Source of the DNA: Sinotaia quadrata
Lineage: Eukaryota; Mollusca; Gastropoda; Architaenioglossa; Viviparidae
Length of the DNA stretch: 64,000 nucleotides
Assembly (NCBI GenBank): GCA_028829895.1
Contig: CM054181.1
Span: 61,654,759 to 61,718,758, forward strand
Direction: 5' to 3'
Within the stretch, counting starts at the first letter, position 1; each line of letters begins with the position of its first letter. Below the pieces are notes generated by a model. That model saw nothing but the letters and a program-made list of their open reading frames with translations. It made no database searches and was not told the origin of the DNA. Made by a program: the position numbers and the translations under genes. Below are positions 31,350-64,000 of this stretch, in pieces.

Positions 31350-31565
31350 TTATAATGACGTACCGTATCTGTATATCTAAATAGTGACGTACCATATCTG
31401 ATATTCCTAACTAGTGACATGCCAAATACTGACGGTGTGCGCTATCATATCAGAAAGTCGGATACGTTATCGAACACAAACATACATCAACTTTCTGTAT
31501 CGGCAAAATAATGTACACTTCTGTTTGGGCAGTTGAAGAAGAGAGAGCTTCTGGAAAAAAAACAG
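31350..31565 (+). promoter_or_regulatory. Gene A promoter and 5' noncoding exon
   Basis: TGACGT occurs at 31356 and 31385 in tandem units of about 30 bp that also carry TATATCT-like AT blocks. The block is shared in order and orientation with upstream regions of genes B and C. A gtaggta donor follows at 31566 after 'gaagaagagagagcttctgg', which is also conserved, so a noncoding first exon ends at 31565. Its transcription start is not resolved. Confidence 0.6.
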
Positions 31566-34500
31566 GTAGGTACGAATATACATCTTTTCCGTTTCCTAAT
31601 TAGTGTAAGATTTAACATAGAAAAGCAGGATGTATTTTTATATCTTCTTTCTTAATTTATAATTCGTGTAAGATTTAACATAGAAAAAAGGATAATTTCT
31701 CTCTCACTTCCACACTTTCTATCTGTTGTTCATAACATTGCACCCGTGTCTAGTAATGCCATATTACAAAATTTAAAATAAAATTAATTTTTAAATGAAA
31801 ATTATCAACCGTAAAACAATCCACTATGTATGACAACCGTTAGCAAAGATCCAGTGTCTGGATGCTGTCATTGTCAGTTGCCCACTTATTATATATTTGT
31901 GACACTTGAATGACAACATAACACAGCCATATACATGACATACCATTCCACGCACCACAGACCGATAAGATCTGTTAAGGTGTTCCTGAGAATTTTATAC
32001 AAATAGATAGATAGATAGATAGATAGATAGATATTTTGTTTGTTTTTGTTTTCAGCAGCCATTTGTCTGCCGTTTCATTTCTTTTTACTTATAAAGGTTG
32101 TCAAATAATTCAACGATTTACAGTTAAGCGTAGTGATATTGGAATGGGTGATTGACAGTTTTTGGATATAGAGTCCGTTCTCACGTTAGCTGATTTTACT
32201 CACTGATATAGAGTCCGTTCTCACGTTAACTGATTTTACTCACTGATATAGAGTCCGTTCTCACGTTACCTGATTTTACTCACTGATATAGAGTCCGTTC
32301 TCACGTTAACTGATTTTACTCACTGATATAGAGTCCGTTCTCACGTTAACTGATTTTACTCACTGATATAGAGTCCGTTCTCACGTTAACTGATTTTACT
32401 CAGTGATGCAGTAAAACCAGGAAGAATTTTTTGGCTGAGGCGGTTAGCTGGGATGGAGGAAATGAGATGAAGAAAGATATTCAGAACAAAGTGGATAGTT
32501 GTTCAGTTAATCCTTCTGCTGTAATGGTATTTGCAAAACTGATGTCATGATTTGATTTTTCATTGCATTTATATAGTGTTTATTCCTTAAACTTTCGTTG
32601 TTGTTTTTTCTGAGAAGAGTTATTTTATATTCATTTATTTTATAATTAATTATTAATTTTGTGTATGTGTTATTACCGTGCATTTGTGTTTTCTTTTTTT
32701 TTCTTTTAGCCCAAGTTAAATGACTAATTAATGAGTGGATTTCCAGTAGGCTGTAGGGCTTCATGAATATTGTATATAGGTGGTAATCTTTGCGACTAAC
32801 GTACTGGTTAGGCCGAAACGCACCATAACCTTATTTCTAACCTGCTTTAACAGTAGCCTCAGATCAAACTATAGCGCACACCGGAAGCTTGACATTACCC
32901 CTAACGAAGCCTTAATTCTTCTTTCTTACAGAAACTTACACACATTTCGAAAATATTTTAAAATTACAACAATGAACAAATATAAAACTGTTTCATCTTA
33001 CTCATGCTAAGGTACAATCAACAGATCAATTTAAATGTTCAAATACTTCTCTCTATGTATCGACCTGCCTCTTATCAGGTCTTGATAATTAATAAGATCT
33101 CAGACAAAGTTCCAGATTTTGACCCCTTCTCCCCCATCCCACAATTCTAGCTTTATTATCACGTAATGATGGTCAGTAAAGATGTAATGTGTACGAGCTG
33201 GCTTAGTAGTAGACAGCTGGACCTGTTTCCATGCAAGAGCTTTTGACGTTCAAATAATATGTCAATACAAAACATTGCTGTATCATTACAGCCTAAGTAC
33301 ACAAAGGTCACTGGCCTCATGACGTTCGATTTAGACGGTAGTAGTTGACCACTGCCTTTAGAGGAGGGAGCGGGGGTGGGCAAAGAGCTTCTTGAAGCCA
33401 CATTATAACTAACACTTTCGCTTTGAAAAGGAGTTTATTCTCCTCCATTTTCCTCTTATGGTAAGTGCTGGTTTATCACAGTGCTTGTTATATCACAGTG
33501 CTGGTTTATCACAGTGCTGGTTATATCACAGTGCTGGTTTATCACAGTGCTGGTTATATCACAGTGCTGCAATACTTGATTAAAAGAGGATTATATGGAA
33601 CGTGCAATCTTGATGTAATTCCGTGTTATCAGAATATTATTATACGTACTTTTGCTGTAACGCTGGATACTGGATAAACGGAGTATGTACATGTATGTAC
33701 ACTCTCTTGCAATAACAGTTTATAAACAGATGCATATTTTGCTTTAGCGATAGATAAAGGGCATGTTACAATTCCTCTCTATTTTGTCTACAGACAATAT
33801 GACCAGTTCCCTAAAACAATGAAAATGAGAAAGAGCTTTGTGTACCTAGTTCTGGCAATCGCCTTGATCACCAAGTCTACAGTCTGGTAAAGATTTATAC
33901 TTTTTAATGTACTGTAAGTTGGTTAAGATATGCATTTAACCCCTTTCCATCTTCAACTCTGAAAATCATGTTTAATTCCATTCACACAGATATGACAGTA
34001 CCTGCAAATCAATAGCTGATTAATTTTAAAGTACTTATGCCAACAACCCTGTTGTTCGGTTTGTCCAAATTTAAAAGGAATTCCAATTTATATAAATAGC
34101 CATGCGTACAATTCTATATAAAACGGCTACATACAAACCTAAATTGGCTAAGCTACTGATATCACACGTAGACTAGAACATAAATTAAACAGGTCTTTTA
34201 AAATTATGTGGATGGGCCATTTTCAGTTGATATACTGTATTTATTTTTCGATGTTCATGGAACTCTGATTGGACAGTGACGTCACTGAAATACTGTTTCA
34301 TTGGACAGGTTTTCCTGTCCTTTAACACTTATAGGTCAAGGTGTTTACACGAATATGATATTTCAGTCTTTACGATTTAGTTATTTAAATAATCAAAATG
34401 TAAACTGAAGAAACTTGCAGAAATTTCTCCATATTGCTTGAATACTTGCAGCCAAATTAAATAGGCTGAAAGTTTAGAAATTCATTCAAAAAATAATTAA

Positions 34501-63414: not shown

Positions 63415-63715
63415 AGAACTTAAAGGAAAACATATTTCCAAGATTTAGTTATGGATTAAATGAAATTTAACGCTTTAAATTATAGACAAAGCGAATGTCT
63501 AAAGTTTTAATTATGGACAAATTAATTTCAAATGTCAAAAGTTTCCTAAATGGACAGAACGAATGTCAAAAGATTTAATAATTGACTGAAGGAATGTCAA
63601 TAGTTTTAATTAAAGACAGGAGGAATGTCAAAAGTTTTTATTTTGAAGATATGATTTTAAGTGTGGACAAATAAATGATAGAAGATTTTATTATAGAAAT
63701 AACATACGCATCCTG
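63415..63715. repeat. About 35-bp degenerate repeat
   Basis: Loose units around 'gaatgtcaaaagttttaatt' and 'atggacaa'. A single related unit lies at about 50820-50870 in gene C's intron. Confidence 0.6.
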
Positions 63716-64000
63716 CCCTATATGTGTTGAAGGTCAGCAAGCCTGTCTATAGGTATAGTATCAATGTGACACATCTTGCCCTATATGTGTTAAAGGTCAG
63801 CAAGCCTGTCTGTAGGCATAGTATCAATGTGACACATCTTGCCCTATATGTGTTAAAGGTCAACAAGCCTGTCTGTAGGTATAGTATCAATGTGACACAT
63901 CTTGCCCTATATATGTTAAAAGTCGGACAAAACTGTCTATAGATATAGTATCTCAGTCACACATCTTTCCCTATATATGTTAAAAGTCGGACAAAACTGT
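63716..64000. repeat. 62-63-bp tandem repeat, four to five units, runs off window
   Basis: Units of 'ctatatgtgttaaaggtcag' ... 'agtatcaatgtgacacatct'. Equivalent to 50850-51020 in gene C, just downstream of its signal exon. Confidence 0.92.

Follow-up and report, generated by a model that had tools for sequence, protein, structure and literature searches.

The window analysed here, a stretch of 64,000 nt from Sinotaia quadrata (CM054181.1, 61,654,759-61,718,758, forward strand), may hold the short-tailed end of a secreted knottin-type mollusc family whose long-tailed members serve as scaffold in secreted material, a reading that we rate a little short of an even chance. For the long-tailed members a matrix, mucus or shell-type role is favoured, with defence as a close rival and venom unlikely.

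The window was scanned in six frames with the pattern C-x4-8-C-x4-10-CC-x2-5-C-x3-10-C, using 100 order-2 Markov shuffles as the control. Four matches were obtained, all of them the last exons of the genes g1 to g4 (Table 1); the shuffled windows averaged 0.06 matches, with no more than 1 in any of them, and the four-exon cysteine pattern is well beyond chance. Each last exon begins with a G after an AG acceptor, followed by a Cys codon. Nine positions are invariant in the alignment of g1-g4, namely all seven Cys, one Gly and one Ser. The introns and flanks of the four genes are homologous at the DNA level, including the intron before the last exon and blocks further upstream. A preliminary description of this DNA had placed the same four last exons, and its coordinates were reproduced to the base, together with the seven-Cys spacing that it had reported for them. 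Its reading of the four as paralogous cysteine-rich genes of a secreted type is supported.

Table 1. Features of the g1-g4 genes, in window positions (position 1 is the first base of the window).
Feature	Position	Strand	Remarks
g1 conserved upstream block	31353..31929	+	putative promoter (TGACGTA motifs) and non-coding exon 1, conserved GTA-type donor
g1 signal-type exon, coding	33819..33886	+	second ATG six bases on possible
g1 last exon, coding	36977..37154	+	58 aa after split Trp, 7 Cys, 30 residues past core
36-bp minisatellite behind g1 stop	37194..37608	+	
g2 last exon, coding	39932..40085	-	50 aa, 7 Cys, 22 residues past core
g2 signal-type exon, coding	42157..42218	-	
g2 conserved upstream block	43480..44020	-	putative promoter and non-coding exon 1
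g3 last exon, coding	47820..47988	-	55 aa, 7 Cys, 27 residues past core
g3 signal-type exon, coding	51285..51349	-	
g3 conserved upstream block	53663..54029	-	putative promoter and non-coding exon 1
g4 last exon, coding	58699..58828	-	42 aa, 7 Cys, 12 residues past core
g4 signal-type exon	531-592 bases past window end		

One other frame of the g1 minisatellite resembles a Pro/Asn/Tyr/Gln repeat tail interrupted by stops, which suggests a lost or excluded tail. Related 25-bp minisatellites lie directly upstream of the last exons of g2 (40261-40570), g3 (48144-48320) and g4 (58993-59381); being common to these three genes, the array appears to be older than their duplications. The long intron of g3 contains LINE-type element fragments (48707-50387, minus strand), with RVT_1 at 42.5 bits, over the cut-off, and zf-RVT at 24.2 bits, below it. 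Elsewhere in the window, an open frame of 358 aa (24005-25081, plus strand) with apparently one membrane segment and no Pfam family over cut-off may belong to a gene for a membrane protein, as its last exon. Another open frame, of 246 aa (16189-16929, plus strand), had no Pfam match at E 1 and holds a perfect 42-bp tandem repeat (16522-16616, 2.3 copies), and a 51-bp minisatellite (26075-26885, 15.9 copies, 98% alike) is open in three frames (278, 299 and 314 codons). No matches were obtained when the window was scanned against Rfam at the gathering threshold and for tRNAs.

Gene models were read over 264 kb, consisting of the window and 20 adjoining pieces and holding ten genes. Splicing was predicted from conserved sites alone, and the label signal is putative, judged by eye from a start that is basic and a run of hydrophobic residues. 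All ten genes have an upstream block, a signal-type exon and a GTAAA donor, and the intron between the signal-type and last exon is 1.9-7.7 kb long, starting with GTAAA and ending with AG in each. For g1-g3, the signal-type exon ends TG|GTAAAG, and the TG together with the G of the last exon makes a split Trp codon. This is the arrangement given in the preliminary description, whose three signal-type exons were all recovered, the fourth lying past the window end. TCTACAG precedes the signal-type exon in seven of the ten genes; in g4, m9 and m10 it is altered, and another CAG is found at or near the site. Within the 264 kb, 12 upstream blocks align, having TGACGTA motifs and a conserved stretch followed by a conserved GTA-type donor. 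The likely gene plan is a non-coding exon, a signal exon and a last exon. Translated intron matches between the genes gave no hidden propeptide exon among the best 25 of 302, all 25 falling inside intron minisatellites, in line with the earlier statement that signal and mature parts sit on separate exons with no propeptide. Beyond the window, two orphans for which no last exon was found were seen (positions counted from the window start): a signal-type exon with an upstream block at 84972-85030, and an upstream block alone at about 125060-125290.

The genome holding the window comprises 984 Mb in 26 contigs. On contig C5, at least 14 last exons of this kind lie at about 61.69-61.98 Mb, within about 290 kb; the count is a lower bound obtained with g2, g4 and core-plus-linker as queries, g1 and g3 not being used. 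The last four of the 14 members were read from short pieces only, with their signal exons unread, and a weak match with knottin-like spacing on contig C4 (L023) was left out of the counts. The core C-x6-C-x5-CC-x3-C-x5-C is present in all 14 members, one of which has an additional Cys in the last loop. A Cys-type start of the last exon (G then Cys, with the seventh Cys before the core) is found in g1-g4 and three others. Six genes with both exons read are Arg-type, having the split codon CG|T (Arg) and no extra Cys, and one further gene is probably Arg-type, judged from its exon start. The seventh Cys of the preliminary description therefore holds for g1-g4 and fails as a rule for the family, being absent from six genes of the wider family and probably from a seventh. 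Counted from the first Cys of the exon, there are 7 Cys in g1-g4, 6 in seven members, 8 in two and 9 in one. Five of the seven members with the extra Cys have it at the C-x2-C distance that also links the cores of L008, a multi-core gene on contig C8.

In ten of the 14 members on contig C5, the same exon runs on past the core into a tail of 98-777 residues (the six Arg-type genes have 98-190, the remaining four 108, 558, 777 and 175). These long tails are rich in Pro, Asn, Gly, Tyr and Ser, the sum of the five being 43-79%. Tail repeats are clear in five of the ten long members, which are those counted (GYPGN, YPGNT, FNPNPNVN and PGSNV), with 18 copies of FNPNPNVN in one member and 66 and 18 copies of PGSNV in two. 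A dibasic pair is absent from 11 of the 14 tails, and in two of the remaining three it stands at the last residues. The net charge of core plus tail is -2 to +2 in six of the ten long members, three are strongly basic by residue count (+12 to +22, two of them partly read) and one is acidic (-11, also by residue count). When seven long members were aligned, the linker that follows the core proved well conserved; among the six Arg-type genes the final dozen residues also resemble one another, with a middle of variable length between. The genes of the window are the short members, with 12-30 residues past the core. The venom-like peptide family of the preliminary description is not supported in the form given there, since the four genes on which it was based are just the short end of a set in which ten of 14 members carry such tails.

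Divergence was compared among the six Arg-type genes (15 pairs pooled) and among the window genes. For the Arg-type genes, pN was 0.080 and pS 0.039 in the core, with at most one synonymous difference per pair, 0.122 and 0.121 in the linker, and 0.024 and 0.072 in the signal part. For the window genes, pN was 0.368 and pS 0.606 in the core (six pairs), and the trend was opposite in the signal part of g1, g2 and g4, with pN 0.214 and pS 0.110. The Cys are held throughout the compared genes. In the 15 Arg-type pairs, intron ends were 8-13% different in nine and 24-27% in six, and intron starts 9-16% different in ten and 40-44% in five, all five involving m10. As numbers are small and pairs non-independent, no positive selection is claimed.

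All 14 cluster cores have the six-Cys framework C-C-CC-C-C with knottin-type loop lengths, and the cores on contig C5 are predicted to be knottin-like by spacing and by profile comparison, in agreement with the framework proposed in the preliminary description. AlphaFold2 run on the four window sequences gave no usable fold model (mean pLDDT 51.4, pTM 0.26). A profile of the same four sequences matched five peptides of solved structure weakly (E 0.026 to 0.43), of which one is a nemertide and the other four are toxins of spiders or cone snails or a venom polypeptide. Against Pfam, the cluster stayed below the 23.2-bit cut-off of UPF0506, its best score being 20.5 or 20.8 bits in two scans, and none of the seven long members scanned matched that family at E 1 or better. 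The best score for Dickkopf_N was 12.2 bits, which does not reach the cut-off of 25, and the scores for the conotoxin O superfamily (PF08087, Toxin_18; best 18.2 bits, cut-off 24.3) and the Omega-toxin model (18.7 bits, cut-off 22) were likewise below threshold. No matrix or structural Pfam family was matched; one long member gave sub-threshold scores for collagen (24.1 of 27.2 bits) and cytadhesin (21 of 40 bits), because of its repeats. No homologue emerged when g1, the four window sequences and seven long members were searched against a protein database; for the seven long members, 7,999 candidates were scored and none reached E 1. This is weak evidence of restriction.

The host is very probably a mollusc, as had been proposed. 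On contig C2, a dense run at 47.04-47.25 Mb holds 33 matches to the haemocyanin domain PF14830, which we take to be mollusc-specific, all over cut-off and all on this one contig. Six of these matches have one stop inside the matched stretch and are perhaps exon ends. PF14830 had no match in 14 control genomes, which are apparently mostly microbial and make a weak control.

Multi-core relatives were found elsewhere in the genome. A UPF0506 search of the genome gave 18 places, g2 itself among them, none over the cut-off alone and two, L008 and L046, over it with their neighbours in frame; those read were L008, L046, L044, L045 and L047. UPF0506 was also matched, below cut-off, in three of the 14 control genomes. 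L046 was rejected as a multi-core gene, its match being an artefact of tandem repeats, which are open in several frames. L008 encodes six cores within a single frame, joined by C-x2-C links, and it scored 48.1 bits against UPF0506 (PF11703; cut-off 23.2) in six stretches and 28.4 bits against Dickkopf_N (cut-off 25), these being the only above-threshold Pfam matches in the family. Upstream of its exon, the sequence shows homology to the introns of the cluster, one example being 73% over 156 columns at E 1.5e-16; the low-complexity filter was off for this comparison, and many microsatellite matches were disregarded. A profile built from 11 of the 14 cluster cores was compared with a profile of the six L008 cores and scored 37.2 at a probability of 96.5%, against a mean of 18.3 and a maximum of 26.8 for 40 controls in which the Cys columns were kept and the others shuffled. 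By these sequence comparisons L008 is judged homologous to the contig C5 cluster, as a paralogue. A PDB search with the six-core protein gave chance-like matches only, the best at E 0.22. L044 and L045, on contig C3, have four cores each and a C-terminal stub, and L047, on contig C8, has three cores.

The closest known family is the mussel CRP-I. As described for Mytilus (sCRP-I and mCRP-I), this is a mollusc multigene family with single- and multi-knottin members, its array C-x3-6-C-x1-7-CC-x3-4-C-x3-5-C accommodates the contig C5 cores, and its genes resemble those found here in that exon 1 is short and consists of 5'UTR only, with the mature part confined to the last exon (PMC10138031). They differ in that the open frame spans three exons and includes a propeptide with a dibasic release site (PMC10138031), and no such site lies between the signal-type exon and the core in the contig C5 exons read. 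Repeat tails are not mentioned in the CRP-I passages of that source, and the likeness is one of description (PMC10138031). The family matched by L008, UPF0506, is described as a knottin of undefined function in flatworms (PMC8400842), reported from Schistosoma and others of that group; the contig C5 members stay below its cut-off. L008, L044, L045 and L047 resemble the secreted cysteine-rich repeat proteins (SCREPs; PMC6262176) in having a small Cys-rich domain in tandem, in which they contrast with all 14 contig C5 members, where one Cys core is followed by a tail free of Cys repeats. An abundant limpet shell-matrix protein, Lottia Lotgi1|239447, is likewise a secreted mollusc protein that joins a low-complexity Gly/Asn-rich region to a cysteine domain (PMC3374290). 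Its two parts are in the reverse order, and it is an analogy only, drawn from descriptions (PMC3374290).

In the long members, the core would fold as a three-disulfide knottin forming a stable head or binding module, a disordered tail would remain attached to it, and the protein would act as scaffold in mucus, cuticle, shell organic matrix or glue. This material role is favoured because ten of 14 members would have a stable head with a long, probably disordered tail and 11 of 14 are free of the dibasic pair. The near-neutral charge of six long members, unlike that of a cationic antimicrobial peptide, speaks for it, as do the clear tail repeats, the similar linkers and tail ends of the six Arg-type genes around a variable middle, and the signal-type exon, GTAAA donor and upstream block common to all ten genes of the 264 kb, and the limpet protein provides a possible parallel (PMC3374290). 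Against it are the three strongly basic long members and the acidic one, the few residues past the core in g1-g4, the lack of any matrix or structural Pfam match, and the excess of pN over pS in the Arg-type core, a pattern also known from defence and venom genes. The window genes, as short or truncated-tail members, may act as small peptides, and their seventh Cys, unpaired in a three-bridge core, could join two molecules. Defence, to which we give appreciable weight though well under an even chance, is the best rival because mussel CRP-I is of the same array class and has a similar exon plan. The genes would then encode secreted knottins of mantle, gut or blood cells directed against microbes or parasites, as proposed for CRP-I, which shares the array class, the single- and multi-knottin members and the 5'UTR-only exon 1 (PMC10138031). 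An immune locus of fast turnover would fit the tandem copies, the orphaned signal-type exon and the variability of the mature part, and the three basic long members suit such a role. The tail, rich in Pro and Gly, would then serve as another active or binding region, as the corresponding part does in penaeidins and crustins. Weighing against defence, neither a propeptide exon nor a release site was found in the intron matches and exons read, released peptides seldom have tails as long as 777 residues, and in g1, g2 and g4 the signal part is no better conserved at amino-acid than at silent sites. In the tests reported, a synthetic mussel CRP-I peptide showed neither antibacterial nor protease-inhibiting activity, although it was toxic to cells of one line at 10 uM and above and increased mortality among injected insect larvae (PMC10138031).

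A role in signalling or inhibition, in which the core of a secreted protein would bind a receptor or protease in the manner of Dickkopf or colipase, is improbable: L008 passes the Dickkopf_N cut-off, but its match rests on shared Cys spacing, the cluster members do not reach that cut-off, and tails that vary so much between copies would not be expected of conserved ligands. The least likely reading is that of venom or salivary toxins directed at ion channels, since the toxin models stay below their curated cut-offs and solved toxins were matched weakly. Those sub-threshold Toxin_18 and Omega-toxin scores and the best profile match at E 0.026 do point towards toxins, but all these scores depend mostly on Cys spacing, no propeptide appeared among the best intron matches, most members have long tails, and the only family matches above threshold, UPF0506 and Dickkopf_N, came through L008.

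The preferred reading, of a secreted family with scaffold-type long members, can be taken one step further, though we think the following rather doubtful. In the genome of a single mollusc, one exon module would exist in three forms, namely a short peptide, an array with three to six cores, and one core heading a disordered repeat tail of up to 777 residues, and these would mark several stages of a route linking knottins of the toxin or defence type with structural proteins outside the cell. The extra Cys of the short members, at its C-x2-C distance, may be what remains of a lost adjacent core, namely its final Cys, and may now join two molecules.

Knottins have mostly been studied as short toxins or immune peptides. 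The preliminary description had called the family undescribed, and this architecture, a knottin core with a long tail, was indeed absent from the best-ranked matches in the open-licence literature. The claim does not extend to the array class, already known from mussel CRP-I together with a similar exon plan (PMC10138031). A core that carries from 12 to 777 additional residues, and that recurs three to six times at other loci, would illustrate the ease with which an exon passes between peptide, array and scaffold. It is also a warning that the core alone is no basis for naming cysteine-rich genes venom-like. The contig C5 set provides defined genes for shell, mucus and gland proteomes.
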